Of a stretch of 64,000 bases of DNA, positions 4,592 to 57,920 are shown in pieces. Source of the DNA: Symbiodinium natans (taxonomy: Eukaryota > Sar > Dinophyceae > Suessiales > Symbiodiniaceae); assembly GCA_905221605.1 (NCBI GenBank), contig CAJNDS010000489.1:38501-102500 (forward strand), in the 5' to 3' direction. The first letter of the stretch is position 1, and every line of letters starts with the position of its first letter. The position numbers and the translations under genes were made by a program. The notes under the pieces are model-generated. The model saw only the letters and a list, made by a program, of their open reading frames with translations. It was not told where the DNA came from and did no database searches.

Positions 4592-4825
4592 TACTCTGCC
4601 AACGACTGGATTCTGTGTTCCACATCTCTGCACTGCTAACACGAAAGACTACAGCACAACCGGCGCTTGGTACAAACCAACACTCATGCAATATCACTTG
4701 GGTAGAGAATAACACGGCTGAAGTCTCTAAGTGAATTGCTCCGATCAGGGAGCTCAGAGTGGTCAATCAAGACCATACTGTCAGGCAGGCAGACAGTGCG
4801 GTACACGAATACTGTCTGGAGCACA

Positions 4826-5092
4826 CATGTGCGTATCTCCACGCCAAGTCTCGGGTCCTGATTACTTGGTTTCACCTCTCAATCCTGAAAACCTGGTACA
4901 AAGTCTCATAAAGGATTGCAAAACGGCTCGTAGGTGAGACAGACATGGCAGGTACACGAACCAAGCGTCCTTGGTTCATATCAGTCACAAACATGGCCCT
5001 CTTCGTTGGACCGTCAACCATGCTTGTGAGACGGTACCCCTGCATGCTTTAACGGTGAAACGCACACTTCCTCCCTTGGCAACAGGGTTGGC
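4826..5092. repeat. Repeat family X, copy 2
   Basis: This is the second copy of the sequence at 2774-3066. It includes the CTTCGTTGGACCGTCAACCA segment and the terminal CTTGGCAACAGGGTTGGC. As in the other copies, the end abuts an alternating purine-pyrimidine tract, here GCGCGC passing into (CA)n. Confidence 0.8.
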
Positions 5093-5382
5093 GCGCGCGC
5101 GCACGCACACACACACACACACACACACCCCCACACACACCCACCCACCCACACACACACACCCACACACACCCACCCACCCACACACACCCACCCACAC
5201 ACACACACACACCCACCCACACACACCCACCCACCCCACCCACCCCACCCACCCACCCACCCAGCCACAGCACGCGCGCACGCACACGCACACACGCACA
5301 GGCACACGCGCAAGCGCACACGCGCACACGCACGCGAACGCGCGCGCGCAGGCATGAGGCACGCAGGCACGCAGGCACGCAG
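5093..5382. repeat. (CA)n / CCCA / ACGC array ending in GCACGCAG units
   Basis: About 290 bp of alternating purine-pyrimidine and CCCA repeats. It ends in three or four GCACGCAG octamers at 5360-5382. The same octamer resumes at about 18797, on the far side of the large minus-strand element. That suggests this array and the one at 18790 were once continuous. Confidence 0.9.
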
Positions 5383-5400
5383 CTTGGAAGCCCGCGGGGT

Positions 5401-5779
5401 TAATAAATACATGGCCAATGTGCTAAGTAATTGTGGCAGATACCAGACTTATATAAGTAGACATAGATTGACACTAAGTTGGTTTAGCAGTACTGAGTTA
5501 AGGCACATAGTATGTGAACTTAGCAGATTTATCTTAAGTTGTCTAAGTATGCTAACTTCTTTTCTGGGCCACAAAATATAACTAAAGAAACGTTCGGCAA
5601 CACCGGAACCAGGGGTATGAGACGCCTCCAAGAATGTGCCATGTAACCTGGTGCAGCAAAATACAGGTGCGAACTTCAAGGCAAGGCTCTGGTTACATGC
5701 TGACGAGATGTGGCAAGTGAACAGTTGAAGGCTGTGCTGGCTCGCTATATAGGCAGGGCATTTTGCTCGCCGGCAGGGC
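5401..5779. other. AT-rich subterminal / 3' untranslated region
   Basis: This stretch lies between the candidate left end and the stop of the transposase gene. It has repeated TAAGT-type motifs (for example GCTAAGTAAT, ATAAGTAGAC, CTAAGTTGG, CTAAGTATG) up to about 5570. No other coding sequence is seen. Confidence 0.4.
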
Positions 5780-8700
5780 TCATGGCACAATGAGTGCCTC
5801 TCCATTGCACCTTCGGTGCAGCACAGCCTTGTCGATCGTGTTTGTAGCGATCCAGGTCGGCTGCTCCCGAACATTGAAACGATTTTGGCCGAGAGGCTCC
5901 CACACAGATACCAGCGAGTGCACCTCACCGTTCGCCAGCTGCACATGCAGCCACACTTCGGCGACAACCTCCCCAAGGACAACTGTGTCACCTTGCTCGC
6001 ACGTCTGCCCAGGCTGGAAGTCAGCCACAAGGCCTGCTAAGGATCCCATGGCTTGTGGTAAACCGAAAGAAGCAACCAGTTCTGCGACAAGCTCTTCCGA
6101 GGCTGGCTTCGCTTTTGTGACGGAAGGCTTTGTCCAGAACTCATATTCCTGCAAGCTCAGGAAAGAACGACCCAAGACATCCTCCATCACAGTGAACTCA
6201 AATGTCTTCGTGACTTTGTGGAGGTTGTTTGCGATCGCCTTGATTTGTTTATGTTTCCGTTCATGGCAAAAGCATGAGACGAGCCTCTGATGCTGATGAA
6301 GCATGCCTGGCAAATGCAGTGAATAATGAAATGTCGGAATCACTGAATCTTCGCTGTGAACTTTCAAAAATGCTTGCGAGTGAGCCACAATGCGGGATCG
6401 CAGCTCCTGTGGGCTGATTGCCTTGCCCTTGTTCCCCTCCAGCAGAGAATCAAGCACCAAGCAAAGCTTCAGAAAGCTATCGCAAGCCATTCTGACAGCG
6501 GCTCCAGTGAGCGAGTTGGCATGGAGAAGCACGAAAAGCCTCAAGAGTGGGTATATGCTGAGGCCTTGCGATGCTGAGCATTTGAAATCACCCGGTGCTG
6601 TCTTCTTCTCGAAGATTTTCAAAACCTCTCGCTTATGGGGTCGCAGTCCATGAGGCCACTCGAAGGAGCTGAAGAAGGTCAGGATTTCCTTGACACTGTG
6701 TCCAGCAGCATAAAGCAATGGCATCAGGAGTCCCAGCTCCAGCTGAAGAAGTCCATTCACCAAATAACAGTGCATCCAGTCATACATGGTTGTTGAGGAG
6801 GGTGCAAGCAAGCGGGATCCCAACAAACCCTTATAGTTGTGGTTTATTCCCATGGCTTGCTGCAGCCTCTGCAATTCGGTCTTGCTGCCACGACCAGCAA
6901 TGGTCTCCAAACGATCATGCGAGGCCCACAGCACTTGGTCGCCACGAGCTCGCCACTTCGAGTTGTCGGTTTCGGCAATGGTGACCAAGGTATTCGTGGC
7001 ATCATGAACATCAAGCCTGTTGTTCTGGGAAACGACGTTGCTGCAAAACAAGCAGCACACTGACCCCGAGGCTCCCTTGAGGTCCCATGCAAACTTGATG
7101 CATGATTCATCCGCCACGAAGATGGCAGGCGATGCAAAGAACAAATGTTGCTTCCCTTGGCCAAAATCCAGCATGCATCCCGTCTTCAAGTTGAAAGGCC
7201 CTTCAAACAGTTTTTCCATGAAGAGTTTGAAAAGCTCTGAGAAGCCACCTTCCATTTTGTTGACGAGTTCACTTCTAGCTGCCAGGACAGTGAACCACAT
7301 GCTCTCCGATGACAATTCGGCGCCCATCTCTGCAAAGCTGACATAAAAGGCATGGATTTTTCTACTGTTGAGTGGTTTCAAAGCATTTCCGGGAGTGATT
7401 TCATCTGCATACACAATCATCTTCCATGGGCTTGTGGGCCCATTGGGGCATGCCCTGAGCCTGTCCAAGAAAAACTCTCGGAATCCATCGGATGTCGCAA
7501 TGGCATGAGAAAGCACAGCTGGCAAGCATATGAAAGGAAGCTTGTGCTCTCGAATACTTGCTGTTCCCGTCCGGCCATCCAGCTCCTCGATGTGGATGCT
7601 CAAGGAAGAAAAGGTTGGGCCCAGAGCTGTATTAACCTTGCAGTCGTCTTCCCGGGCTCGTTTGATGCTTGCGCGAGAAGATGCATCAGGCAGTCTATCC
7701 AGGGCTTTCAACTCTTTCAATACATTCGCAAGGCCATTGAGACTGACATATGATCGTCGGCCCAATTTGGCCAGATCAACCATTGTAGTCCCTGCTTTGC
7801 GAGCTTTACGGAAGCCCTGCAAAAGCGAGAATCTGCATGTGGATTCAACAAAAAAAAGAATTTCGTGTGAAGTGAAGAACCGACCGAAACTTCCTTATAG
7901 AAGCCCCTAAACCTTACAAATATAGAACCCTAAACCCTATATAAACCCTAAACCCTATAAGCAACAAGAAAGGTCTGAAGTTGTTTGTTTGACCCTAGAT
8001 AGACGGCGAATTGAAACTTTGAGGCAGCCAGGCATGCATCCACTTTAGTCTCGACTCAACGAGTTCAGTATATACTTTGTCGACCTGCATGCAGAACACA
8101 GTGACAACAGCACATCAGCAAGCCGAAGCCTACAGAGCTGACATCAGTGATTGTCGCAAAAAGATCCGTTGCGAGGACAGTCCATGAATGCTGCATGCCA
8201 ACTGGAGGACACAATCCATGAAGCAAGCATGCATGCACGCTGTTTCGAGCACAGTTGCGAGGGCGACTCCCTGTCACCAAATGCAACATCTTTCGTCTGG
8301 CACACAGTATATAGGATATAGTACTATAAGAACAGCTGCCCCTGAAGCTGCTGCCGAAGATGGAACAATTGTTCGCACGATGTACCATTCACCGAATGCT
8401 GAAGTCGCACAGACTGCATTGCTTCAATTGAAACACAAAACTCACACTCACTTCGGCTTGCTGGGCAGGCAGCTCAGGCAAAGCAACTTGGGGAACAGCC
8501 CGGCCTCCACCGGCACTTGCCACACCCATTCGGGCGCAATTTGATCCTTTGGGCACTGGTCATGGAGCGAAAGTGCTCACGATCCGGCTTTGCCATACCC
8601 TTGCTCTTTGCTTGGGCCTTGGCCTTGGGCTTCGAATCCTTAGTGCCTGCCTTAGCAACGGCTTTTGCCTTTGCTTTGGGCTTACCTTTGGGTAGCTCGG

Positions 8701-8934
8701 CCTTGGACTTGGCTTTAGCTTTGGCCTTTGAGGCTGCTGGCTTCTTCTTGTTCTCCATCTTCTTGTTCTCCAAAGCCTCGGTCACGAGCTGGCTCGACTT
8801 CTCCACTTCCCCCATGACGTCATTGTCATCCATGCTGGGCAAATGTGTCTGAAATGTAGGTGAAGTTCTTGACAGGGATGGGCTTTGCTGACCACTCGGC
8901 AAGGCCAGCTGCAGCTGCTGCAGCTGCTGCTGCA

Positions 8935-8966
<32 letters not shown>

Positions 8967-10030
8967 GCCTGCTGCTCGGGGGAGAGCTGCTGCACATGGG
9001 GGGACAGCTGCTGCTGCTGCTGCAGTGGGGACAGCTGCTGCTGCTGCTGGGGGGATGCTGCAGGCATGCCTGCACTTGTGCGAGGAGGCGACTGGAAAGC
9101 ATCTTCATGTTGCAGCATACCTGGGCTTCTGGATGCCTGCGAACCGCTCGACCCATTCGGGCCGAAGATCCTCAAGTTTTGCAAGCCCGAGCCCTGCCTT
9201 GTGCCCTGCTGCATGCCGGACTGCATATTCATGAGGGTTGTCATCATGGAGAGCATGGTCTTTGCAGCATCCGGTGCGAAAGCATTGGTAGGTACATGTG
9301 CAGGCCTACCCTGCAAAGTGTCTCGAACCACCTTGCTGCTTCTCCGGAGAACGACTTGCCCACTAGCACTGGATGCAGGAAGTTGTGCTTGATCTTGCTG
9401 CACCGGTTCCTCCGAGCTGTAGGCGAAGTCGAAAATCTTCGTGGGCAGCTGCCTGGGGTCGCTGGGGTAGGACTGCACGTGCTCGGTGAAAGACGGAGCC
9501 GATTTCCTCTTGTTTTTCAAGAGCCTCTTGAACTCTTGGACCAGATTGAACGAATCTTCCGGGGTGCAGGCAATGCCATGGTGCATGCCTGTTGCAATAA
9601 CATGCCCGACTGTTTGCTCAGAAGGGTTTGTCAAGCCGATCGACAGGCGTCGGGTCACCATGGTTTCGAGCTTCACACACAGGTTCCCATGTCCTGCCAA
9701 GACTGCAACATCGGTCGGTGTCAGGAAGGCACCGAAGTGGAGCAAGCTCTGGGTCGGCTTCCTGCCATTACTCCGGCCTTTGTGGGCGATCTTGTTCGAC
9801 ACTGCCTCGACCCATGTGCTCCGATGGGTGGCTGTCCAGCAAGGACCTTTCAAGGCTGCAGACAATGTTGTCGCCTGCTCGGTGGTCAGGTCATTGATGA
9901 GACTCAGCTTGTGCAACAGCTGCTCCATCTGGTTGGCTGCCACTTTCTCTTGCATGTCCGGTGCCATGCTGGAGGTCTGCTGCAAGAACTCCTCGATGCT
10001 TTTCACGTGCCCCAGAAGCTGCTCGGCCAT
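5780..10030 (-). CDS. PolyQ/Cys-cluster protein fused to CACTA/Plavaka-like transposase (two exons)
   Basis: Exon 1 runs 10030-8480 and exon 2 runs 7816-5780. They join in phase 0 to give about 1,195 residues. The start is the ATG at 10030 (MAEQLLGHVKS); in-frame sequence continues upstream, so an earlier exon is possible. Residues about 1-200 are helical and unrecognised. A glutamine-rich tract follows (about 325-375), then a KAKAKA-rich basic stretch and a cysteine cluster GCGKCRWRPGCSPSCF (C-x2-C-x5-C-x3-C) at the exon end. Exon 2 carries transposase-like motifs: VYADEITPGN (about 655), FVADESC then KGASGSVCCLFC (about 753-775) and MYDWMHCYLVNG (about 863). This order resembles the D, D-x-A...C-x2-C and D-x-x-H elements of CACTA/Plavaka DDE transposases. 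The product would cut and join element ends in the nucleus. The cysteine cluster may bind zinc or DNA; that is inference. Confidence 0.65.
7817..8479 (-). other. GC-AG intron of the transposase gene containing telomere-like DNA
   Basis: On the coding strand the exon ends TGCTTT. The intron starts GCCTGAGC, and its 3' end reads CTTTTGCAG followed by GGCTTCC. A GC donor and AG|G acceptor fit dinoflagellate splicing, and the two frames join in phase 0. Without splicing, exon 1 meets a stop three bases later (8474-8476). Bases 7905-7962 on the plus strand are several CCCTAAA-like units. Confidence 0.7.
8905..9060. repeat. Coding CAG/CTG repeat (polyglutamine)
   Basis: GCTGCTG runs on the plus strand encode interrupted glutamine tracts in the minus-strand gene. 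They are separated by LSP/SPEQQ-type interruptions. The repeat also opens long artefactual Leu/Ala frames on the plus strand. Confidence 0.9.
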
Positions 10031-10177
10031 GACGGGCAAGCTCGGGGACACGGGCAGTGCACGACAGTCGAGAGCAAGCCGGCTGCGAAAATCTGCTTGC
10101 GAGCAAGATGTGCCCTGCAAAGCGACTTTGCAGCAGGTGGCAGTCTGAAGCACATGACATGTATATGGAAAAACCAC

Positions 10178-10904
10178 AACAATCTCTGCATGCTCTTGTG
10201 CATCTCAGGCATTCACTTCACCACGGCCACCACAAGAACCACACGACCACAAGCACCCATGAGCACCAAGCATCACCGGCAGCAGCAGGACCAGCATGAC
10301 ATCATGCAGCACCATTGCATCATGTACGATTCAGAAATGACGGCACGACATCCCGATCGCCAAACCCAACACCACCAGCATGGTCAAAAATCTTTGTCGT
10401 TCCTTTGCTCTCGACTCTCTACTTTCTCTCTCTCTCTCTCTCTCTCTTTTTTTCCCCCCCTCCCTCCCTCCCTCTCCCTCTCTCTGCCTCTCTCTCTCTG
10501 TCACCCTGTGCATGATTACCTGCATGTGGCTGCATGGAATGCACTGCAGTCTCCTGTTTTTTTTCGGGCCAGCTATCTCTGTCCCCAGCATCCCAGTCCA
10601 AGGTGCACCCAGCGACGAAACACCAGCTACAGGTAGAGAGTTTTTAAAGAACAGATAAGTACACAGAGCCACATTACATAAAGTCGCTGGATGCAGCAGC
10701 ACCCTCTCCAAGGGAGCAGCCGCTTCGTGCAGGCTCGAGGCACCAGCTACTTCTCCGTATTTGTATATATATATATATATATATAAGTGTGTATATATGT
10801 ATACATATAGGGTTATAAGGGATTATACAGGGTGTTGGAGGGTCGAGGGGTGACATATAGGTGTTTAAGTATAGAGTGTTTCCAACAGAATCAGAACACC
10901 CAAC
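10178..10904. repeat. Non-coding spacer with (CT)n and (TA)n tracts
   Basis: The stretch holds a (CT)n tract with C-runs at about 10423-10500 and a TA tract at about 10765-10787. No supported coding segment was found. It is probably intron or spacer within the element. Confidence 0.6.
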
Positions 10905-11085
10905 AGAAGCGCTAAACCTAATATATAAACCCTAAACTGTAAATCCGAATACAAACTAAACATCCCTTAACCCTTAACCCTTATAAACTTATAAACCTAA
11001 ACCCTAAACCCTTACAAACCCTTATAAACCCTTATAAACCCTAAACCCTATAAACCCTAAACCCTATACTCTATACCCTAAACAT
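10905..11085. repeat. Interstitial telomere-like tract (CCCTAAA on +)
   Basis: Degenerate plant/dinoflagellate-type telomere units (CCCTAAACCCTTA, CCCTATAAACCCTAAACCC) repeat for about 180 bp. It is internal and imperfect, so it is not a chromosome end. Confidence 0.85.
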
Positions 11086-11556
11086 TCAACATATATATAT
11101 ATATATACACACATATTGAAATTTAAATTCTTACATATTTGTGTATATAGATATGTATGCATATGTACATATATGCATACATATACATCTACATATACAT
11201 ACACATACATATATATATATATATATGTACATATGTATATATATATACTATATATATATATATGTATATATGTATATATGTACACACATATACACATATA
11301 TACACACAGATATACATATATACATATACACATATACACATATACACATATACATATATACATAGATACATCTATACATATATACATATATACATATATA
11401 CATATATACATATATACATATATACATATATACATACATACATATATACATATTATACATATATACATATATACATATATACATATATACATATATGTAT
11501 GCATATATACATATATACATATAAACATATATACATACATGTATGTATATACAATT
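11086..11556. repeat. (ACATAT)n microsatellite
   Basis: About 470 bp of ATATAC/ACATAT repeats. It yields open Tyr/Ile frames on both strands that are not genes. Confidence 0.95.
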
Positions 11557-11784
11557 TGTGTATTTAGTTATTTATGAGTATATGTAGGAATTACAGTAGT
11601 GTATGAGCACGACACCACCCAGGACCCATGCACGTGCCATTCGGGCGACTTGCCGGCTTTGGTCAGCTGAAGGGTCTGGGTGGCAGGGTACAGGGCAGGA
11701 TGTTATAGAGGAAGCCGGCCTGTGCGACACCCGAATGAACCCACGGGGCGGCTGTCCAATTTCCGGCCGGGCGCAGGATTTTGT

Positions 11785-11825
11785 AGGGTTTGTGGTGTCT
11801 GCAGGGTTTATAGGGTTTAGGGTCT
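11785..11825. repeat. Short TTTAGGG-like tract
   Basis: GGGTTTATAGGGTTTAGGG-type units on the plus strand, one of a set of short telomere-like tracts within this element. Confidence 0.6.
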
Positions 11826-11947
11826 GCAGCTTGCTACAGCAAGTCCTGGGCCCTGCCATCGACGGCCGAATGCTTGTATCTGCAGACTGCAGTGGCCTGA
11901 TCTGCTACTCTGCTACAACATTAGCAACTGACCCCGAACCACAACCA

Positions 11948-12130
11948 TATCAATCTATAATGTGGCGACTGGCCCCGGAACCCGAAACTTATCAATCTAT
12001 AATCTGCTGGCCGGCCCCGGGCCCGGAACCATATCAATCTATAATCTGCTGCCCGGCCCCGGGCCCCGAAGCATATCAATCTATATTCTTGCGGCTGGTC
12101 CCGGCCCCCAACCATATCAATCTATAATTC
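11948..12130. repeat. 42-bp tandem repeat, five copies
   Basis: TATCAATCTATA begins at 11948, 11990, 12032, 12074 and 12114, so the unit is 42 bp (the last interval is 40). Each unit pairs this AT-rich 12-mer with a GC-rich segment such as CCGGCCCCGGGCCC, which is nearly palindromic. Confidence 0.9.
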
Positions 12131-12394
12131 TGTGGTTTTCCCTGAAGCACCAATATGCCCTTGCAGTTTGCCCGACTCAGCCGCCTCATCTGTAGCTGCT
12201 CCCACCTGCAAGCAAAGAAATTCAGGCCCAGAAGCTCTGTGTGTGCCGGAATATATGATGCATGTTGAGGCAGCAGCAGAGGTGGCGGGAGCAGCCCAGG
12301 GATTCCACGGGCCTCGAAGGGGCTGGTGTTTGAATCTGTTTAGGAGCATTTATAAGGTTCACGGTGAAAAAGTGTTGAGGGTTTTGGGTGTTTA

Positions 12395-12500
12395 TGTCGG
12401 TCTTTTAGGGTTTAGGGTTCAGGGTTTAGGGCTTAGAGTTCAGGGTTTCGGGTTTAGGGTTTAGGGTTTAGGGTGTGGGGTTTCGGGTTTAGGGTATAGA
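12395..12500. repeat. Telomere-like tract (TTTAGGG on +)
   Basis: Repeated TTTAGGGTTTAGGG with TTCAGGG and TTCGGG variants. Its orientation is opposite to the tract at 10905. Confidence 0.8.
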
Positions 12501-12689
12501 GGGGTTTGGTTACCAGCCGAGTCTTGACTTGAGATCCCGACACGTCTGTGCCCTGGCACTCCGAAGTGCCTGGGCACGAAGCATGCAGGACACGAAAGCG
12601 AGCAGGATCGGTGGATCCGAGCACACCAAGGTTCCCACTGCTCAGCCCCGGTTCTCGAAGAACTGGCTGGATCTCGCCTGTGCCAGAGG

Positions 12690-12900
12690 GGTGGGGGGGG
12701 GGTTGGTGGGGATGGGGGGGCGGGGGGGGGTTGGGTTTGCTTGAAGCACACCCCCACAGCTCTCCCAAAAACCCTCCTTGCCCTAAATTCTGGGTCTGGG
12801 TGCTTTTTTGCGGGACCCAAACGAGTAATTCTCTCGTTTGGGTTGTGTGAGGAAGGGGTGGGGGGGTGGGGGGGGGGTGGGGGGGGGTGCGGGGATCACA
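12690..12900. other. G-run-rich segment
   Basis: Two clusters of long G-runs (about 12690-12735 and 12855-12890) lie on the plus strand. They are able in principle to form G-quadruplexes and flank a short unrecognised segment. Confidence 0.7.
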
Positions 12901-13004
12901 AAAAAAAGAAGGCCTGGATGTTGACTGTCTCCGCCAGCTGCAGCAACCCAGTCACCAGGCGATCGTCCCGTTCCTGACCGGTATGAAGGTCCACGACCGG
13001 CTCG

Positions 13005-13190
13005 TCGAAAACCCTATATAGGCCCTTAACCCTTCTTTTAAACCCTATATAGAACACCCTATATATAAACCCTAAACCCTGACAACCCTAAACCCTGTAA
13101 ACCCGGAGAACCCTTTATGTAGGGTTTCGAATTCCGGGTTGAGGGTTGTTAAGGTTTATATAGGGTTTAGGGTTTATATATATCAGGGTT
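13005..13190. repeat. Head-to-head telomere-like repeats (inverted)
   Basis: CCCTAAA/CCCTATA units at about 13005-13115 are followed directly by GGGTTT/TTTAGGG units at about 13118-13185. This forms an inverted pair able to fold back on itself. Confidence 0.75.
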
Positions 13191-13507
13191 GATGAACACA
13201 GGGCGCTATAAACCCATTTCAAAGTAATGTTCCTTTAAGGGTTCGGCCCTATTGGGCCTCCGGGTGCTTCTGCTTGCCCTGCCCTCCTCGGGTACGGGCA
13301 CGGGACCTCCCGGAGCCTGGTGCCCACACGGTGCCCGTGTTGTCGACGAAGCCCCTCAGATACTCTCCTGATGTGGGCTCATGACGCATGCAAGCAAACA
13401 AGGTTCTGCATGGCAATCCTAGTCGCCGGCCTCGTCCTGAGGAGTCCGGCTTGCACAGCTCACCCGGGAACACAGACTTCCTCTTGTTGGTCCCGGCCCA
13501 TGGAGCC

Positions 13508-13695
13508 TGCAAACTTATAAACCCCAAACCCTAAACCCACCCCTATAAACCCTTTATAAACCCCATAGAAACCCTAAGCCCTATATAAGTCCTGTACAAA
13601 CCATACATAAACCCTAAACCCTTATAACCATATATATATATATACACTAAACCTATAAACCCTAAACCTTTTTATAAACCCTAAACCAATAATAT
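13508..13695. repeat. Telomere-like tract (CCCTAAA on +)
   Basis: Degenerate ACCCTAAACCC/CCCTATAAACC units with a short TA run near 13633. Confidence 0.8.
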
Positions 13696-14354
13696 AAATC
13701 CTAAAAGAACAATGCAGCTCCCGGGCCCTGCCTTGCCCTGTGCAACAACTGGCACGGGTGGTGGCGGGGGTGGGGGCGGGGGGGGGGCAGGCCAGTCCTG
13801 CCCCCGTCGCGAGGGGTGACATCCCTCGTGGCACCCTGCTTGATCTTCGGCTTCGGGGCGACGAACTTCTCCTGCATGCAACATATATAAAAGAACAAGA
13901 GAAATGAAGCACACCATGCATGCAGTCCTTGCCATACCATGGGGGGTGATCGGGCTCCCGGACCTAAGCAGCTGGCCCAATATAGATAAGGCCAATCACA
14001 TGAATGAGACTCCGAGCCGAGGACTTGCTTCGGCATCGCCTTCTTCTTGGCCTTTCTAGAGTGGGGTGTTGTTGGGGTTGGGGTTTCTAGGTTGTGGCTC
14101 AGCAGGGCAGTGTGCTCGCTTGAAGTCCACTCCTGCCTCCTTCCTCTCCAGCAACTTGATGCCGGTGCTTTCCATGGAGGGCTCCGGGTCCTGCAGCAAG
14201 CGACCCAGCATGGTTTATAATACTTTGGCCCAATGGAACAGCTGGCCTCCTCCACCAACACCTCCTCCGGCTCCTCCTCCTGGATGTGCAGGCTCAGGCC
14301 GGCCGGCACCCAGTCGTCGTCCAGCCAAAAGAGCCAACCTGCCAGAAGATACAA

Positions 14355-14430
14355 TTGGTTTAGGGTTTAGGGTTTAGGGTTTAGGGTTTATAAAGGCTTT
14401 GGGGTTTAGGATTTAGGGTCTATAGAGTTT
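14355..14430. repeat. Telomere-like tract (TTTAGGG on +)
   Basis: Four perfect TTTAGGG units in a row are followed by degenerate ones. It lies next to an exon-like minus-strand segment, so it is probably intronic. Confidence 0.85.
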
Positions 14431-14615
14431 ATAGCATTTATTTTCAGCAGTACACATGCAGTCGCCTGTCTCCGGAGGGTCTTGCAGGGAAGCATCTGGG
14501 TGCATCCACCATGGTTGGTCGGTTTCGATGGAAACCACCCTCCAGCCCAGCGCCTTGCTCCACCGAAGCGATGCCGAGCTCCCATTCCACCGTCCTGCCA
14601 TGCATGGTATATATA

Positions 14616-14616
14616 G

Positions 14617-14664
<48 letters not shown>
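14616..14664. repeat. (GT)n microsatellite
   Basis: An uninterrupted GT tract of about 45 bp. A second short GT tract lies at about 14825-14840. Confidence 0.95.
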
Positions 14665-14666
<2 letters not shown>

Positions 14667-14971
14667 GTATATGCATGCATGTCATGCTCACTGAAGCTCC
14701 TTTTCTGCCTGGGTGGAATGTACCCAGCATGCCCAGCTCGTCAAACTTCGCGAACTCGTCGGCATGCTCGGAGTCCATCGTAAAGGACATGGACTTCATC
14801 TTAAATGTGCATCTGTGTATTATATGTGTGTGTGTGTGTGCAGCCACCTGCCAGGACAGTATGTTGGCCCATGCATGCACACATAAACCGCCATTGGAGC
14901 CGTGTGCTGCACACAAGTGGAAATCACGATGCATGCCCTGCATGACAGACAAGACATACGAACCTCTCTGC

Positions 14972-14975
<4 letters not shown>

Positions 14976-15018
<43 letters not shown>

Positions 15019-15032
15019 CTTCCTCCCCATCG
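14976..15032. repeat. (CT)n microsatellite
   Basis: A CT tract passing into TTTC units, in non-coding DNA between candidate exons. Confidence 0.95.
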
Positions 15033-15208
15033 CCATCTCTATATATGTCTTTCTCTGTGCATTGCATGCAGCATATTGCATGCACCATCCCTCCCATGCA
15101 CCCGCCGGCCCCGAGTCTTTTTTTGTGAACCCTCGCCATGCGTGCCGGCCCTGCTTCAAGAACCTCGCTCACCTGCACAGTATATCTAGACTGATCATGA
15201 TGTTCGGC

Positions 15209-15793
15209 TCAGTTGCTGTCGCTCTTCTGCAATCGTCTCTTCTGCTTCTTCATCGGGGACTTCTTCGGGGACTTCTTTGCCCTGGCCTTGGGCTGCCGGG
15301 GCTGGGGCTTGGAGTCAGAGATGAACTCTTTCAACTTTCTGAGGGTCTCTTCGCAGGCCTCGACCCACAAAGTGTGACTGCCCAAACCTTCATACAGCAC
15401 CCGGAAGGAGTAGCCCCTGAACTGCAGAGTCAAAATGGGGGGTGCCATAAAGTCGTGCTTCGAGGAAGCTCTGGTGACTGCCTTCCGTTTCTTGCCAGCT
15501 GGGGCCTCATGGTCCTCTGTCTGGAATGCTTCTTCGATTGCCTTGTCCGCCACTTCCTGGCGAGCTGCCAGCAAGCCATCCCAAACATCGGAGTTCAAGC
15601 TGCCCCCGTCTCGGTTCTTTCTGAGATCTAGAGCTTTGCCGGTCAGGGCAAGGACGGCCTGGCGATCCCACTTAGATAATGCGAGGAAGCTGGTCTCGTT
15701 CACTGTCTTCTGCTTCGGAACCCATGCTTTGCACCCCTTCAAGGTCACGACCCATTTTTGGGCAAGGTGGAGGTCTTGATCTGCATCTGCCAT
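15209..15793 (-). CDS. Unrecognised basic-tailed protein, first exon
   Basis: The start is the ATG at 15793 (MADADQDLHLAQKWV), and the frame closes at 15209 after about 194 residues. The middle part has a compact, globular-looking composition (FRGYSFRVLYEGLG, HTLWVEACEETLRKL). The C-terminal 40 residues are very basic (RAKKSPKKSPMKKQKRR), suggesting nucleic-acid or nuclear localisation. The start lies about 290 bases after the stop of the 18232-16079 gene, on the same strand. Such close same-strand spacing is typical of dinoflagellate gene runs and fits both being cargo of one element. The visible stop may be read-through of a splice donor, since exon-like segments continue downstream. No domain was recognised. 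Confidence 0.55.
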   Translation of the reverse strand: MADADQDLHLAQKWVVTLKGCKAWVPKQKTVNETSFLALSKWDRQAVLALTGKALDLRKNRDGGSLNSDVWDGLLAARQEVADKAIEEAFQTEDHEAPAGKKRKAVTRASSKHDFMAPPILTLQFRGYSFRVLYEGLGSHTLWVEACEETLRKLKEFISDSKPQPRQPKARAKKSPKKSPMKKQKRRLQKSDSN

Positions 15794-16078
15794 GTGCAAG
15801 CCCGATGGGGTGATCGCAAAACTGTTTCAGGCGCAATTGAATAATTGGCTGCGAAACAGCACCACTTTTGCTGCAATGCATGCTTTCACATGTTCATGCC
15901 ACACTGACTGCTGCATGCATGCATGCAGAGGCACACAACCCAACATTTCAATTTTGGCAGAAAAGATGAAAGGTTCTGTCGCTGTCTTGCAAAATCGCCC
16001 AGAGGCTCTGCAGCAGCAAAGCAAAGCTCTGCAGTGGATCACGTCACCCGGACTCATGCTCGTGTCGAACCACTGCCT

Positions 16079-18232
16079 TCATGCAGCCTGCTTGCCTTTC
16101 AGGCGCCTTTGGGGGGATGCTGCCTCTAAGGGCTCTTCCTGCTTGGGGGCCTTTGCCTTGAAGATTAAGAGCTCTTGCCCAGCAGCCAAGGGGACACTGT
16201 TCTTCATCAATGGCACACGAAGATCCGATGACTTGGTCCCCGACAGCACACTCGTCATGTTGGCCTTACTCTCGTCCTCTACGGTCTGGATCATGAAGTA
16301 CGGGCACAAGAAACCCACGGGCAGGTCAGGGGCCTCCTCGCTTGCTTTGGGCATGATGTTGGAGGCAACAATGAAGAAGCGACGATCGTGGCATCCGTTC
16401 TGCAAAGTCACCTCTGCAGCTCCATGCAGGGTGTCCGAGCTGCTTCGGGCGACAACCTTGGAGCTGAAGGGGACGAGAATCAGTTTGCCCTTGCCGATAG
16501 CCGACTTGGTCACAAGGCTTCTCGTAGGTCGAAACACGAACTTCAACATCTTCATGCTGCCATGCACATCATGGTTCTCAACGAGAGCATGCATCTCGCA
16601 ATGGATTTTGGCCACTGTGTGGGCGATATCGAAATCGGGGTGGACTGACTGCCCCTGGGGTCCGTATAGCTCCAGGTCCACGATCTCATGCACCTCTTGC
16701 TTCGGGGTATACACTTGCCATTCGCCTCGAACAAAAGCATCGATCTGGACCTTCACTGCACGGCCGTCGCTCAGGTTTTTGAGCTTCACAGCATGATCAA
16801 CATGCAAAACTTCGCATTCGACTTTGTCCTTCTTCCGGCGAACGAATGTTCCAGCCTTGATAGACATGGATTCCAAGATCTCACCTGGCTGCTTCATGGA
16901 CCCGTCCGGGTTAAGCTCAATGAGTCGATCTGCTGGTTTCCCTCCGGATTCGGCTGCAGGGAGTGTCTCGGCATGGGCCTCCCACAGGGAAGCAATCGGC
17001 ACACCGAGGACCTTGGCGAGAATCGAGACAGCATCGTGGCAGATGCCCTCCAAAGATCTGTATCTTTTCTCATCTGCGACCTGCATGTTCATGACATGAG
17101 CCACCATGTTGGAGTCCACCACTCCCAAGACATTCACAAGGTTCTGCTCGGCGGGAGCTCCGTGGCTCGCTTGAGTGGCCAGTGTTCGGAGCTGGGACAT
17201 GAGCCCGTCAGCCTTCACAGCCTTGCCAACCATGGAGCTGTTGCTGAAAACACGCTTGCAATCTGTGGCACTCAAGTGCATGCCGGTCATGGCGAGTTTC
17301 AGCAACCCGTGCCGAAACAAGGGCAGCTGGTTCTTGCTGCCTTTGATTTCATGACAGATCGCCTCCCACACCTTCTCGCCGAGTGCTGTCGTGGAGCCCC
17401 TAGCCCTCACGAACTTCTCCGTCTCACTCAAGAAGAGGCCTTCGGCGCCACCACAATACCTGTTCTACAAAAAAAATGCAGACCCAATTATACCTCACAT
17501 GCATGCATGCAACAGACAAGGTCTATCTGCAATGCGAGCTATATAGCCCTGCAAGCGATAAATCCTGAGGACAAGAAGCTTTAAAGCGAACTGGTAAAAG
17601 TGTGGGAAGGAGTTGCCACAGGCCGGGCGGGATGACAGTGTCTTCTTCTGCAAGAGTTCTGGCCAGCGAAGGCCCACCGATGACGACAACACCTCCCAAT
17701 TCAAGCCATACCGAACATGGTCGGCGAGGGCTGCATCGACCTTGGACACCAACCCCACATCAAGCCGGCCTCCCACAGTGACCTTCTCGCTCTCGGGGCC
17801 CTGATGAGGGGCAGCGTCGGCGATGACCCGAAGAGCAAAATTGGTGTGACTGCCACAAAGGCTCAATGCCTTCAGTGTCTGCAGAGGTTTCATCGTCCCC
17901 AGCAGCCCCTGGCAACTGTCGATGAGCTGCTGATTCCATTTCAATTCTTCATCGCTGGCTGGTTCGATAGCAACACAATGTGTCCTCTCCGACACAAATC
18001 CTACTTCGAGGAGGTTCGAAAGGAGAGTGTGGACGTCACTGCTATTCAAGCCCATGCCATCCCTATTTTTGGGATGGACCCCAACTGCCGAGGGAACCAG
18101 TCTCATAGAGGTTACGAGCCCATTATCTCTCAAAACCTGCATGACTTGGTGAACTGTGTTCACCAGTTTCTCTCCACTGGCGGCACCGTCCAAGAGCATG
18201 CTGACTCGGCGATCAACATCTGCAGGAATCAT
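16079..18232 (-). CDS. Unrecognised 673-residue accessory protein of the large element (two exons)
   Basis: Exon 1 is 18232-17592 and exon 2 is 17459-16079. The 132-bp intron has a GT donor (CCA|GTTCGC), a pyrimidine-rich 3' end and a CAG|G acceptor. A glutamine codon is rebuilt across the phase-2 junction. The start is the ATG at 18232 (MIPADVDRRVSML); an in-frame stop lies a little upstream. The N-terminal third contains HPKNRDGMGLNSSDVHTLL, a pattern I associate from memory with a multi-copy dinoflagellate family of unknown function. The second exon is a mix of alpha/beta sequence with basic, KGKL-type stretches and ends RRLKGKQAA. No catalytic motif was recognised. It is the first gene of a minus-strand run inside the candidate transposon, so a role in element biology is a reasonable but unproven inference. 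Confidence 0.65.
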
Positions 18233-18419
18233 GCCAAAACTGATGGCACTGAATCTTCACAAGCAAAAGTCTGAGCAACAAGCTGCAAATATACCCACAA
18301 TCACAAACATGCGTGCCCTGCTTGGCATCTCGATCGTGCCATGACTGCCAGCGAGCAAACATATATATATATATACAACCCTGCATGCAAACATCCTGCA
18401 TCCATGTGCACGGTTTAAA

Positions 18420-18789
18420 AAAATTTGCTTCTTCGGCATGGTCTCCAATGCCATTCCTCCTTTACAAACAAACTGATTTAGCTTGCTTGCTAAAACAAAT
18501 AAGTGTGTTTAGCTAAGTCTCGTAAATGAGTCACATTAAACTCGTAATCATTTCGTGCAATTATATATAATTGTTCTTTTAGACATATATCTGTGCTATC
18601 CATATACATCATTTACTTTGTAAATATATGTCCATGCTACCAACATACTGAGTGTAACAAAATCAATATGCAACATAGCATGCTTATAAATGCAATAAAC
18701 CATACTTACCCATATTATTATGTTCACTTAAACGATATATTATTTTCGTTGACAAGCCTATTCACTTACGAAACCGACGCCCTTCCAAG
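18420..18789. other. AT-rich right subterminal region of the large element
   Basis: This is markedly AT-rich compared with its neighbours, with no coding segment. It contains TAAGT/ACTTA motifs in several contexts (for example CGTAAGTGAA and GGTAAGTATGG on the minus strand). It ends at CTTCCAAG before the GCACGCAGG array. Confidence 0.45.
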
Positions 18790-19175
18790 AGGCACGTAAG
18801 CACGCAGGCACGCAGGCACTCAGGCACGCAGGCACTCAGGCACGCAGGCACGCAGGCACGCAGGCACGCACGCACTCACGCGATCGCACGCGATCGCGCG
18901 CGACAGCACAAGACCGCACGCGATCGCACGCGATCGCACGTGATCTCACGCCATCGCAGGCGATCGCACGCACCCACGCGCGCGCGCGCGCCCGTCCGCG
19001 CTTGCACGCTCACGCGCACGCACGCGCGCACACGCGCACGCTCGGGCGCACACGCGCACGCATGCGCACACACGCGCACGCACTGCGCACGCACGCGCAT
19101 GCACGGGCACCCGCACATGCACTTGCTTTCATGCGTGCACGCGCACGCGCACGCGCACGCATAAGCACACACGCA
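18790..19175. repeat. GCACGCAG octamer array, CGATCGCACG decamers, then CGCACGCG-rich DNA
   Basis: Octamers GCACGCAG/GCACTCAG (18797-18870) give way to decamers close to CGATCGCACG (18876-18970). Then come CGCA and GCGCAC repeats to about 19175. The octamers match 5360-5382 and the decamers resemble 2574-2655. Confidence 0.9.
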
Positions 19176-30488: not shown

Positions 30489-32092
30489 GAAGCCTGCCTG
30501 GGCGGCTCGCCAATGACAGTGAGGTGGACGCTACTGCGTATCAGGACTCTGGCGGCAAACCTCTCAGTTCTCCCAGAAAAGAGAATGAAGATGAGAAAAA
30601 GTCAGAGACAGACAGGTCCAGTGACGATGGAGCTGACGGTTTGGACAAGGCTGCCGAGATGTCTGGGACGAGGCCCTTCAAGTTTAAGCCAGAGGGCGAA
30701 GCCCCACCCGCGAACCCGAGTGGTGACGCCGCTGCGTCGCGGGCGCGCAGCAGGAGCCCGAGGAGCCCGAGGAGCCCGAGCCCGAGCGGCAAGGCATGCG
30801 CACAAGCCGGGGAAGCCGAAGCAAGGCCCGAAGCAAGGCGCGAAGCGGCGGAGCCGGAGCCGAGGGGCCCTCGCGTCTTGCGACAGTCCGGCCGACGTCT
30901 TCGCGACAGTGACCTGGTCCGCATTGCCCGGGATCATGGCAAAGGCAGCTATGATGAGATCGACTTCTCTCGCAACGACCTGACGTCTGAGTCTGTCCCT
31001 GACATCGTTGAAATCTGCAAGAAGTCCGATCGGCTGAAGATCCTCAAGCTTTTCAACAACCGCTTGGGAGACGATGGCGCCGAGGAGCTAGGGGAGATCT
31101 TCCGACATTGTGCTGCCATTGAAGAAGTACATCTTAGTCACAATGACTTCACTCGAAAGGGTGTTGAAAGCCTTGTGCGGGCTGCTGACAGAGGTCTGCC
31201 AAAGGATGTCAAACGTCCACTGTGGCTTCGCCTGGAGCATAACAAGGTGCCTGACACTGAAGGCCTTGCGCGTGATTTGGAACGGGACTGTCCTGCTGTG
31301 TGCGGAAGAGAGGACCGGCATCGGTGCACGCCGAGAGTCTGTGCCAAAGGCAGACGCATTCACCTGCCGTTCTTAATTGAAGCTCCAAAGGGAAGGGGAC
31401 GTGGCACCCGCGGTCAAGAGAGCTGGGGCCATGTGGGCCAGGGCCAGCGGCGCAGGCGAGACTCGCGAAGAAGGCCGACAGCTCCGACGCGACGAAGGAG
31501 TTTTAGGCGACGCAGGTCGGATTCCCGGGATTCCCGTTCTAGGTCTCGGAGATCTCGGCGATCTCGGAGATCTCGGAGCTCCAGGTGCCTCTCCAGGACC
31601 AGAAGTGCATCAGTACGATCTGGAAGCATGCCTCGGACTAGGACGCCTTTGCAACCGCGACGCAGCCGCAAGGGCCTCAAGGCACACAAGGCACACAAGG
31701 CCCAGAAGCCGCAGAAGCCTCAAAAGCTTCGCAAGGGCCACAAGCGGTCGGCCTCCAGCTCACAATCTCCGCCCAAGCGGCAATCGCTTTCTGCTTCCCC
31801 CCCCTCCTCTGCGCCATCACCAAAGTCTGTGAGTGAGCTCCCGCTGGCCGTGACAAAGCTCAGAGCGAAGGCCAAGCCTCGTCCGCTGAAACCACCCAAA
31901 GGATCCAAAGGCAGACCACTTGCAAGAGGTAATGAGGGTCATGTTGCGACCCGTGCATCTCGAGGCAGTGTTGCGACCCGTGTACAGAATCAAGCCAGTA
32001 AGGCAAAGCATGCACGACCGTCGAGAGATGTGCGTGATGCCATTGAATATAGCTACTATAGCGAGTATGAATATGAGTACAGCTATGTTTAG
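30489..32092 (+). CDS. LRR/RS-rich protein, copy 1
   Basis: One long frame runs from a plausible AG|G acceptor (30488) to a TAA at 32092. No ATG is seen at the 5' end, so an upstream exon is likely. The order is: an acidic N-terminus; an arginine-serine stretch (RARSRSPRSPRSPSPS); and about three ribonuclease-inhibitor-type leucine-rich repeats at roughly residues 140-235 (IDFSRNDLTSESVPDI, LKILKLFNNRLGDDGA, IEEVHLSHNDFTRKG). A Cys/His-bearing segment (GREDRHRCTPRVCAKG) and IHLPFL follow, then a long RS/RG/K-rich tail. The end is tyrosine-rich (YSYYSEYEYEYSYV). RS domains are typical of nuclear RNA-processing proteins and LRRs mediate protein binding, so a nuclear RNA-related role is plausible but inferred. 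A second copy follows at 34996. Confidence 0.75.
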
Positions 32093-34995: not shown

Positions 34996-36438
34996 TTGGA
35001 CAAGCTAGCTGATCAGCGCGAAGTATGGTCCAGTTCTGAAAGTTCAGAAAACTTGCACGAAGATGCGGAACAGCCTGATACAAACTGCGGCACCTTGGTG
35101 GCTGAAGTGACAGGAGCTTCTGCGGAAGAGGTGTTGCCCGCGAACCCGAGTGGTGACGCCGCTGCGTCGCGGGCGCGCAGCAGGAGCCCGAGGAGCCCGA
35201 GGAGCCCGAGCCCGAGCGGCAAGGCATGCGCACAAGCCGGGGAAGCCGAAGCAAGGCCCGAAGCAAGGCGCGAAGCGGCGGAGCCGGAGCCGAGGGGCCC
35301 TCGCGTCTTGCGACAGTCCGGCCGACGTCTTCGCGACAGTGACCTGGTCCGCATTGCCCGGGATCATGGCAAAGGCAGCTATGATGAGATCGACTTCTCT
35401 CGCAACGACCTGACGTCTGAGTCTGTCCCTGACATCGTTGAAATCTGCAAGAAGTCCGATCGGCTGAAGATCCTCAAGCTTTTCAACAACCGCTTGGGAG
35501 ACGATGGCGCCGAGGAGCTAGGGGAGATCTTCCGACATTGTGCTGCCATTGAAGAAGTACATCTTAGTCACAATGACTTCACTCGAAAGGGTGTTGAAAG
35601 CCTTGTGCGGGCTGCTGACAGAGGTCTGCCAAAGGATGTCAAACGTCCACTGTGGCTTCGCCTGGAGCATAACAAGGTGCCTGACACTGAAGGCCTTGCA
35701 CGTGATTTGGAACGGGACTGTCCTGCTGTGTGCGGAAGAGAGGACCGGCATCGGTGCACGCCGAGAGTCTGTGCCAAAGGCAGACGCATTCACCTGCCGT
35801 TCTTAATTGAAGCTCCAAAGGGAAGGGGACGTGGCACCCGCGGTCAAGAGAGCTGGGGCCATGTGGGCCAGGGCCAGCGGCGCAGGCGAGACTCGCGAAG
35901 AAGGCCAGCTCCGACGGCTCGCTGGAGTGAACCAAGGGATTCCCGGAGCAGGAGCACCAGGAGGCCTGCCAGGAAGCCTGCTGGCGAACCTGTGAGCCGC
36001 TTGTGCCTGCGAAGCGCACCAAGAGTGCCTCGGAAGCGGCCTTCCAGCTCTCGATCGGGGACACCGGTGGGTCGTCAAGCTCGTCGCTTTCCCATGCCCA
36101 GTCCTCCACGAGCTCCGAGAGCTCCGAGAGCTCCGAGAGCTCCGAGAGGTGCGCAGGTCCGGTCCCGACCCAGGCCGGAAACGCAGCGGAGGCCTTCTCC
36201 TCCTTACCGGACCCATCGCACACCTCAGCAAGCTCAGCGTGTTGCGAAGCCCCGAGAGCCCCATCCTATAGGAAATTCACGCGGGCTTAACGGGCGCAGG
36301 CCGCAAGCCCGTGGCGGCAGTCGAGTACCGGCTTGCATAAGTCAACCTGCCGTGCCTAGAGATGTAAGAGACAACAGTGTCGAATATAGCTACTACAGCT
36401 ACTACACAGAGTATGAGGATGACGGCAGCTGCGCGTAA
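34996..36438 (+). CDS. LRR/RS-rich protein, copy 2
   Basis: The frame runs to a TAA at 36438; it opens at a TTG, so the true 5' end is probably a splice acceptor or upstream exon. Bases 35137-35906 are identical to 30707-31476 of copy 1 except at 35700 (A versus G at 31270), a silent change in an alanine codon. So the N-terminal RS stretch, the three LRRs, the GREDRHRCTPRVCAKG segment and the basic linker are the same protein. The first about 47 residues and the RS-rich tail differ, but both copies end in a related RDVRD...EYSYYS tyrosine-rich tail. A GAGCTCCGA repeat at about 36106-36150 codes for RAPRAPRAPRAP. The paralogue probably shares the function of copy 1, with a diverged tail. Confidence 0.75.
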   Translation: MDKLADQREVWSSSESSENLHEDAEQPDTNCGTLVAEVTGASAEEVLPANPSGDAAASRARSRSPRSPRSPSPSGKACAQAGEAEARPEARREAAEPEPRGPRVLRQSGRRLRDSDLVRIARDHGKGSYDEIDFSRNDLTSESVPDIVEICKKSDRLKILKLFNNRLGDDGAEELGEIFRHCAAIEEVHLSHNDFTRKGVESLVRAADRGLPKDVKRPLWLRLEHNKVPDTEGLARDLERDCPAVCGREDRHRCTPRVCAKGRRIHLPFLIEAPKGRGRGTRGQESWGHVGQGQRRRRDSRRRPAPTARWSEPRDSRSRSTRRPARKPAGEPVSRLCLRSAPRVPRKRPSSSRSGTPVGRQARRFPMPSPPRAPRAPRAPRAPRGAQVRSRPRPETQRRPSPPYRTHRTPQQAQRVAKPREPHPIGNSRGLNGRRPQARGGSRVPACISQPAVPRDVRDNSVEYSYYSYYTEYEDDGSCA

Positions 36439-50960: not shown

Positions 50961-51099
50961 TTTGTGATTAAAATTGGCTTTGGCTTGGCTTGGCTTGGGG
51001 GGGTGGGGGGGGCTTGGGGCTGGGGGGGGGGTTACCTGGGGTTTTGGGTTTAAGGCTATAGGATTCAAGCTTCGGGATTTCTGGTTTTCGGTTTCAGGG

Positions 51100-51995
51100 T
51101 AGGCGAGTTTTGAGCTTGCACTTGAAGCTTCGGGGTTCGGGTTTAGGGTTTAAGGGTCCAGGAAATTTGGGCTTCCACTTGAACCTTCGGGGTTTGGGGT
51201 TTAGGGCTTCAGGGTCCAGCAATGTTGGGCTTCCACTTGAAGCTTCGGGGTTTGGGGGTTAGGGCTTAAGGGTCCAGGAAATTTGGGCCTCCACTTGAAG
51301 CTTCGGGGTTTGGGGTTGAGGGCTTAAGGGTCCAGGACTTGAAGCTTCGGGGTTTGGGGTTAGGGCTTAAGGGTCCAGGAAATTTGGGCCTCCACTTGAA
51401 GCTTCGGGGTTTGGGGGTTAGGGCTAAGGGTCTTCCAAAGGGGGTTTGAGGGCTTAAGGGTCCAGGAATTTGGGGCCTCCACTTGAAGCTTCGGGGTTTG
51501 GGGGTTAGGGCTTAAGGGTCCAGGAAATTTGGGGCCTCCACTTGAAGCTTCGGGGTTTGGGGGTTAGGGCTTAAGGGTCCAGGAAATTTGGGCCTCCACT
51601 TGAAGCTTCGGGGTTTGGGGTTGAGGGCTTAAGGGTCCAGGAATTTGGGGCCTCCACTTGAAGCTTCGGGGTTTGGGGGTTAGGGCTTAAGGGTCCAGGA
51701 ATTTGGGGCCTCCACTTGAAGCTTCGGGGTTTGGGGGTTAGGGCTTAAGGGTCCAGGAATTTTGGGGCCTCCACTTGAAGCTTCGGGGTTTGGGGGTTAG
51801 GGCGTAAGGGTCCAGGAAATTTGGGCCTCCACTTGAAGCTTCGGGGTTTGGGGTTGAGGGCTTAAGGGTCCAGGAATTTGGGGCCTCCACTTGAAGCTTC
51901 GGGGTTTGGGGGTTAGGGCTTAAGGGTCCAGGAATTTGGGGCCTCCACTTCAAGCTTCGGGGTTTGGGGTTTCGGGCTTAAGGGTACACGGCTGT
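51100..51995. repeat. About 15 copies of a 57-60 bp satellite, telomere-like core
   Basis: Each unit carries CACTTGAAGCTTCGGGG, GTTTGGGGGTTAGGGCTTA and AGGGTCCAGGAA. One copy near 51420-51450 is disrupted. The G-rich half resembles degenerate TTTAGGG. It lies entirely within the Merlin-like element and opens long meaningless frames on the minus strand. Confidence 0.9.
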
Positions 51996-52134
51996 TGGCC
52001 CTTCACTTGAATTTGGGGGTTTGGGGCCGTCCCTCATTTTCAACGCTGCTTCTCCCCGTGCAACTTTCGTGCTCTTTGTCTGGCACTCATTTTGGAGTCA
52101 CCGACTTCACGCCCCCTGAGAGCAAAGCCTAGTG

Positions 52135-56532: not shown

Positions 56533-56616
56533 TTCTACTACTTCTACTACTGCTACTACTGCTAGTACTGGTACTACTGGTACTACTGGTACTATTGGTA
56601 CTACTAGTGCTACTAT

Positions 56617-56696
<80 letters not shown>

Positions 56697-56717
56697 GTAC
56701 TACTACTACTACTACTT

Positions 56718-56752
<35 letters not shown>

Positions 56753-57920
56753 GCTACTACTACTACTACGTCCACCCCTACCACTACCGCTCCCGCTACC
56801 GGTACCGCTACCACTACCGCTACCACTACCACTATTGCTACTGCTACTGCTACTGCTGCTGCTGCTCCTTTTGCCTGTGCTGCTGCTGCTGCTACTGCTA
56901 CTGCTACTGCTACTGCAACTACTGCTACTGCTACTGCTACTGCAACCAACAACCAACAACCAACAACCAACAACCAACAACCAACAACCAACAACCAGCA
57001 ACCAGCAACCAGCAACCAGCAACCAGCAAACAGCAAACAGCAACCAGCAACCAGCAACCAACAACCAACAACCAACAACAAGCAACCAACCATCCACCAA
57101 CAACCACCAACAACCGCCAACAACCACCAACAACCACCAACAAGCACCAACAACCACCAACAACCACCAACAACCACCAACAACCACCAACAACCACCAA
57201 CAACCACCAACAACCACCAACAAGCACCAGCAACCACCATCAACCACCAACAACCACCAACAACCACCAACAACCACCAACAACCACCAACAACCACCAA
57301 CAACCACCAACAACCACCAACAACCACCAACAACCACCAACAACCACCAACAACCACCAACAACCACCAACAACCACCAACAACCACCAACAACAACCAC
57401 CAACAACCACCAACAACCACCAACAACCACCAACAACCACCAACAACCACCAACAACCACCAACAACCACCAACAACCACCAACAACCACCAACAACCAC
57501 CAACAACCACCAACAACCACCAACACCAACCCCAACAACAACCCCAACAACAACCCCAACAACAACCCCAACAACAACCCCAACAGCAACCCCAATAACA
57601 ACCCCAATAACAACCCCAACAACAACCCCAACAACAACCCCAACAACAACCCCAACAACAACCCCCACAACCCCACAACAGACAACACGACAGCCGACAG
57701 CCAGCAGTCAACAGCCGACAGCCAACAGCCAACAACAACCAACAACCAACAACAACCAACAACCAACGACCAGCGACCAGCGACCAACGAACAACGAACA
57801 GCCAACAGCCAACAGCCAACAGCCAACAACCATCAACCATCAACCATCAAACATCACACATCACACATCAACATCATCATCAACATCAACATCAACATCA
57901 ACATCAACATCACTACTATT
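56533..57920. repeat. Compound satellite: (TAC)n, (CAACCAA)n, (CAACCACCA)n, (CCCCAACAACAA)n, (CATCAA)n
   Basis: The right part of the (TAC)n array (56533-56940) is followed by CAACCAA units (to about 57110), a 9-bp CAACCACCA unit (to about 57520) and a 12-bp CCCCAACAACAA unit (to about 57665). CCAACAGCC units and CATCAA units (to about 57915) come last. Long open frames on both strands (poly-Val/Gly-Cys-Trp or Thr/Asn/Gln/Pro) are consequences of the repeat. Confidence 0.95.

Follow-up and report, generated by a model that had tools for sequence, protein, structure and literature searches.

A recently mobile four-gene DNA transposon with a predicted RAG1-type transposase fold in the dinoflagellate Symbiodinium natans

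Introduction

A stretch of 64,000 nucleotides from Symbiodinium natans (C489:38501-102500, on contig CAJNDS010000489.1 of the 759-Mb assembly GCA_905221605.1; hereafter the window, numbered from its first letter) holds a run of minus-strand genes between weak inverted ends at 5383 and 18789, which raises the question of whether these genes form one mobile element and where among DNA transposons such an element would belong. A preliminary description, made from the letters alone, had proposed a CACTA/Plavaka-like transposon with cargo genes. We find here that 5383..18789 (minus strand; 13,407 bp) is a complete, genuine and recently mobile DNA transposon with four genes, all of which read leftwards, and that it is very probably an autonomous cut-and-paste element of the CMCT (CACTA-Mirage-Chapaev-Transib/RAG) clade. 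By its signature and predicted fold the element is a member of this clade, and its ends fall outside the terminal signatures printed for CACTA, Plavaka and Transib in the available portions of the literature.

Copies and boundaries of the element

The left end (5383-5900, 518 bp) and the right end (18230-18789, 560 bp) each gave at least three matches in the assembly, and both recurred together on the same three contigs. These are the window copy (W), copy A (C2068:312321-332815, 20,495 bp) and copy B (C1824:116924-129949, 13,026 bp), which lie at unrelated loci. The preliminary description had counted similarity that ends elsewhere in other copies against a single element, but the alignment of copy B to W starts at 5383 and stops at 18789, exact to the base; the boundaries of W are correct, and the claim of one mobile element with these ends is borne out by the three copies. 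The BLAST match of copy A extends to 5092 and 18881 by way of similar GC-rich simple repeats. Outside the element the flanks are unlike each other, with 6-37 of 100 ungapped matches between the outer 100 bases of W, A and B.

If a 7.4-kb insertion in A is set aside, copies A and B are 99.8% identical over 4.8 kb and 99.1% identical over 8.3 kb, and this near-identity within different flanks indicates that the element moved recently. The insertion lies at element positions 4779-12199 of copy A, has TG..CA termini, is flanked by the 5-bp duplication AGTCT, and contains a single open frame (2,337 codons) whose translation looks like a Copia polyprotein; as it is present in A only, A was probably struck after the move of the element.

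The outer parts of W are 91-97% identical to copies A and B, unlike the middle, a low-complexity spacer at 10503..15208 (unstranded; CCCTAAA-like and AT repeats) in which only short repeat-type stretches match. Synonymous divergence (dS) between W and A/B is also uneven, at 0.019 for the Q-rich gene, 0.066 for the transposase, 0.12-0.19 for the accessory gene and 1.23, near saturation, for the small gene. Together with the unmatched middle (10.5-15.2 kb), these values make W and A/B look like mosaics of parts of very different age.

Terminal sequences and related families

The left terminal inverted repeat (5383..5408, plus strand) has 8 perfect bp, CTTGGAAG, and the right one (18764..18789, minus strand) ends in CTTCCAAG; the 18 of 26 inverted matches reported earlier were recovered. 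CTTCCAAG occurs four times on the plus strand of the window, and only the occurrence ending at 18789 reaches 18/26. The element is bounded by a 2-bp target-site duplication, AG, at 5381..5382 and 18790..18791 (both unstranded), while copies A and B have TA and TT, respectively.

Both ends could be read in five related elements, from three diverged families, that also match the transposase and the accessory gene: C2350 (13.2 kb) and C1767 (13.4 kb) in family 2, both with TA duplications; C2078 (10.7 kb) in family 3, with TA; and C532 (8.6 kb) and C48 (7.5 kb) in family 4, both with TG. For C1767, C2078, C532 and C48 the two ends were assigned to one element from their distance, the agreement of their sequences and the gene matches that they enclose. 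A 2-bp direct repeat is therefore present in 8/8 elements with both ends read, TA being the most frequent (4/8). The ends are CTTGGAATCCTGG in family 2, CTTGAAGGATCG/CTTGGAGGGTCG in family 3 and CTTAGATGGGCCC in family 4, and across the four families the termini begin CTTGGA, CTTGAA or CTTAGA (CTT..AAG type). Two further right ends, in C2366 and C2024, read ATCCAAG followed by TA; a scan of 3.5 kb revealed no recognisable left end for the C2024 element, and a pair in C735, 48 kb apart, was not counted as a single element. Downstream of transposase relatives, an end-like TC(C/T)(A/T)AG was present in 6/13 cases and absent in 7/13.

The motif TAAGT/ACTTA occurs 7 times in the 200 bp of the left subterminal region (5383..5582) and 5 times in the 350 bp of the right one (18440..18789; both unstranded). 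The subterminal repeats described on both sides thus stand out, with 12 in 550 terminal bases against 8 in the 12,857 interior bases.

Transposase

The transposase gene occupies 5780..7783 on the minus strand, with an ATG at 7783 and a frame that is open upstream of it; residues are numbered here in the 680-aa frame starting at 7822. It had been described as the second exon (7816-5780) of a larger gene but looks like a one-exon gene, as the open frames of most relatives have their own methionine just upstream of the conserved part. For the same reason we dropped 8474-10177 as a candidate first exon.

The assembly contains 67 stretches matching the transposase, three of which are the copies. 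The predicted catalytic and zinc-binding residues are D140, D238, C257, C260, H499, H503 and E521, so that the signature of C(2)C, H(3)H and the DDE (Asp, Asp, Glu) triad is present. All 14 members of alignment A1 share C260, D348 and H351, while D140, D238 and C257 are almost invariant. Among 15 non-copy relatives, gaps left out, D140 is kept in 14/14, D238 in 13/14, C257 in 13/15 and C260 in 15/15; H499 (12/12), H503 (13/13) and E521 (12/13) were counted on a second, script-made alignment, and the set includes the broken frames L030 and L034. The missing D238 and the missing E521 both belong to one truncated relative, L019. The spacing of 19 residues from D238 to C257 equals that from D708 to C727 in mouse RAG1. 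Against copies A and B, the ratio of nonsynonymous to synonymous substitution rates (dN/dS; point estimates here and below) is 0.31-0.33. A search of viral contigs with six peptide patterns of the transposase found no matching stretch.

An AlphaFold model of the transposase had a predicted local distance difference test score (pLDDT) of 84.0 and a predicted template modelling score (pTM) of 0.82. Searched against the PDB with Foldseek, it gave 30 hits at E<=0.001, which comprised 28 RAG1 chains, BbRAGL and HzTransib; the best match was to RAG1 (E 5.5e-10), HzTransib had an E of 5.2e-4, and template modelling (TM) scores normalised by target reached 0.55. Ranks 31-50 were BAHCC1, EBS, ZMET2, MET1 or DNMT1 (E 0.04-0.16; prob mostly 1.00, falling to 0.25 at the weakest). 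EBS, ZMET2, MET1 and DNMT1 carry BAH domains, as does BAHCC1 by its title. The model suggests that a C-terminal BAH-like domain is likely, at 5783..6130 (minus strand; about residues 565-680), a range that we infer from the strand-rich tail and the lengths of the matches, as Foldseek gave no query range.

Accompanying genes

Three further genes are predicted upstream of the transposase, all on the minus strand. The accessory protein is encoded by two exons, an N-terminal part at 17495..18232 with the motif NRxG..G..E..G.L..S..SH and a C-terminal part at 16079..17431, whose relatives in C853, C2078, C1853 and C2135 each adjoin an N-terminal part. A small basic protein of 196 aa is encoded at 15209..15799, and a Q-rich, basic protein with the C-terminal end GCGKCRWRPGCSPSC at 8474..10030, a gene that the earlier gene list lacked.

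The accessory N-terminal part has 20 matches in the assembly, leaving 15 loci once the five in the copies are removed. At eight of the 15 (C2078 at 602 kb, C2135, C180, C2350, C1767, C48, C532 and C1797) a transposase relative lies downstream on the same strand within 15 kb. All four non-copy relatives of the Q-rich gene (C2441, C2024, C234 and C1956) adjoin a transposase relative, at a distance of 4 kb or less, and all four of the small basic gene (C2078, C853, C1853 and C1956, the first two being one family) have accessory, Q-rich or transposase relatives nearby. Where it can be read, the gene order is conserved as accessory, small basic, Q-rich, transposase. In family 2, the 13,218-bp element has an accessory gene, a frame with a GCIRCRGNTKGCSTC motif and a transposase in the same order, along with extra frames that have no counterpart in W; by eye, the GCIRCRGNTKGCSTC-motif frame resembles the Q-rich gene.

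Because the relatives found for the Q-rich and small basic genes all occur near other genes of the element, the four genes look like its core parts and not like random cargo. The earlier view that the accessory genes belong to one element with the transposase stands insofar as they travel with it, although cargo is the wrong word for them. The dN/dS of W against A/B is 0.26-0.37 for the accessory gene and 0.17 for the small gene.

Insertion context

Tandem arrays of GCACGCAG do lie outside the element on both sides, as first described; Tandem Repeats Finder places them at 5347..5382 in the left flank and at 18790..18875 in the right flank (both unstranded). Since the flanks differ in each copy, these outer arrays belong to the target, and we dropped the possibility that the GC-rich arrays are part of the element.

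When the flanks were joined to restore the empty site, an array spanned it at 4/7 insertions (W, A, C2350 and C532). Among control positions, drawn from 90.8 kb of the genome (the window and the two contigs of A and B), a spanning array was found at 95/800 with 150-bp flanks and 50/600 with 400-bp flanks, or 8-12%, giving P of about 0.005 and 0.001, respectively. No array spanned the site of copy B, C2078 (family 3) or C48 (family 4; with 180 bp of right flank). Direct repeats shared by both flanks were present at 5/7 sites and at 61/300 controls. At five sites with one readable flank, array sequence reached the end of the element in C853 (a 51-bp array) and C2024, the C2024 array resembling a 112-bp satellite of C2350; no array was found at the end in C735 and C2366, and in C1767 an array began only about 66 bp away. 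An insertion bias towards tandem arrays is likely, and an alternative to targeting is that elements survive in gene-poor arrays.

The 112-bp satellite or a similar one flanks two different elements, C2350 and C2024 (L055 1-452; L056 from 3663; L027 3843-4198).

Discussion

The available text of PMC12730594 characterises CMCT elements by a DDE triad whose second D and last E enclose C(2)C and H(3-4)H motifs, and by target duplications of 2-5 bp. The triad and both zinc motifs are present here, the duplication is 2 bp in 8/8 elements, and the predicted model has an RNase-H core in the RAG1/Transib arrangement. According to the same text, CMCT termini are CA..TG "in most cases", a wording under which the CTT..AAG ends of the four families do not by themselves exclude membership. 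The element departs from the members described there in ends that begin CTT and not CA or TGT, in its probable BAH-like C-terminus and in its own four-gene set.

It could be argued that mere sequence divergence disguises an ordinary member of CACTA/EnSpm or Plavaka, the groups to which the transposase was first likened. The common signature of C(2)C and H(3-4)H and the subterminal repeats agree with this, and Plavaka elements also have 2-bp duplications in the available text of PMC12730594. However, the termini printed there are CAC..GTG for CACTA/EnSpm and TGT..ACA or CATCA..TGATG for Plavaka, whereas all four families here have CTT ends. The preliminary description had treated a profile match of the DDE region as decisive, and none of the 14 family members reached a Pfam cut-off (best E 0.0049, to a domain of unknown function); fold and motif nevertheless place the transposase in the CMCT clade. 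Pfam does have models for CACTA- and Plavaka-type transposases, PF02992 and PF18759. On balance, membership in CACTA or Plavaka proper appears rather unlikely.

A second proposal concerns the accessory protein, which might be a ParB-type CTPase clamp acting on the subterminal repeats. Its motif recalls ParB boxes. A relative from C2135 (456 aa) was modelled with AlphaFold (block pLDDT 78-96 over residues 1-200; overall pTM 0.54), and Foldseek placed ParB at ranks 1, 7 and 11 and the ParB-like PadC at rank 4 (prob 0.80, TM 0.48 by target). Nothing in that search was significant (best E 0.4), no Pfam cut-off was reached, and in a profile-profile comparison with 80 bacterial ParB sequences the score was 14.2, against up to 22.5 for shuffled controls, and the alignment fell on another region. 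We accordingly regard a ParB clamp as doubtful.

Still less probable is a Transib/RAG-like element in the strict sense. The significant fold matches are all to RAG1, BbRAGL and HzTransib, and the predicted overall fold of the transposase is common to RAG1, ProtoRAG and Transib. To our knowledge, the PDB contains no CACTA-type transposase, in which case RAG1 may just be the nearest solved relative. In contrast to the 2-bp duplication found here, those of Transib/RAG elements are almost always 5 bp in the available text of PMC7204232, and the element differs further in its BAH-like tail and in that no RAG2-like partner was recognised among its genes. A segmental duplication or satellite-borne gene cluster, for which the small number of copies (three) and the frequent flanking tandem repeats might speak, is already contradicted by differing copy flanks and by exact ends with 2-bp duplications, found also in three further families, and has almost no probability left.

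Several points weigh against a four-gene transposon of the CMCT clade. In addition to the lack of Pfam cut-off matches, the transposase had no match in the PDB by sequence or profile, so that its placement is carried by fold and motif; more generally, Pfam (best E 0.0045), PHROGs and PDB sequence searches with the element proteins gave noise only. The BAH-like tail is likewise suggested by structure, with no sequence match in the Pfam or PDB searches, and the target bias is based on seven sites. The preliminary description had counted the occurrence of the genes without each other against a single element, and this was seen in part: at seven of the 15 non-copy accessory loci (C735 at 48 kb, C853, C1853, C2239, C2078 at 706 kb, C2234 and C216) no relative of the transposase was detected within 15 kb. 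Nor are the accessory loci independent, given the near-identity of C853/C2078, of C735/C2350/C1767 and of C48/C532. The Q-rich gene, with few changes and a dN/dS of 0.68-0.73, gives no support for selection, the accessory N-terminal frame is single in copy A and split in two in copy B, and the gene models are predictions from sequence.

Among described systems, ESTA, an EnSpm-like group of rust fungi with TA duplications, resembles the element in that TA is the commonest duplication here (4/8) and in that ESTA transposases are reported to resemble RAG1 by HHpred; it differs, as far as its available description goes, in that AG, TT and TG are also used here. Judged by the titles and abstract starts of the matches listed, the literature on dinoflagellate and Symbiodiniaceae transposons describes no such element, which does not establish priority.

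As a CMCT element, the transposon could work as follows. The transposase would recognise CTT(G/A)-type ends, cut by zinc-stabilised RNase-H chemistry and join to target positions staggered by 2 bp. From their position and by analogy, the accessory proteins may attach to the TAAGT-rich subterminal repeats and assist in assembly of the complex, a role that TnpA plays for En/Spm. The C-terminal BAH-like domain might tether the complex to chromatin or to partner proteins and so bias insertion towards tandem arrays, although the targeting and chromatin-reader steps are hypotheses. A bolder and quite unlikely possibility is that dinoflagellates harbour a separate, superfamily-level lineage with the RAG fold, in which a BAH reader on the transposase and a ParB-like clamp partner aim the element at tandem arrays, as an independent counterpart of RAG1 with its PHD-bearing RAG2. 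Dinoflagellate chromosomes are histone-poor, so a question would arise about the ligand of any BAH reader there.

By fold and motif, these results bring into the RAG1/CACTA clade a dinoflagellate element whose gene set and ends are unusual, whose transposase tail may read chromatin and whose genes are overlooked by Pfam-based annotation. Its near-identical, recently moved copies provide material for testing the origin and targeting of RAG-type transposases.

Genome setting and neighbouring features

The dinoflagellate origin of the assembly is supported by the DVNP family PF19060, which has 25 matches in it and was found in 0/14 control genomes. To the left of the element, at 595-2358, the window contains a Copia-type polymerase remnant (RVT_2, E 1.4e-5, below the Pfam cut-off). 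To its right, a direct duplication of 783 bp (30707-31489 and 35137-35916; 99.5% identical) lies within two long open frames with leucine-rich-repeat matches, and a 58-bp tandem array at 51064-52026 has a unit containing the telomere-like GGGTTTAGGG. The simple repeats at 56535-57912, (CTA)n and (CAACCAA)n, have a strong strand skew, with a GC skew of -0.79 at 57-58 kb.

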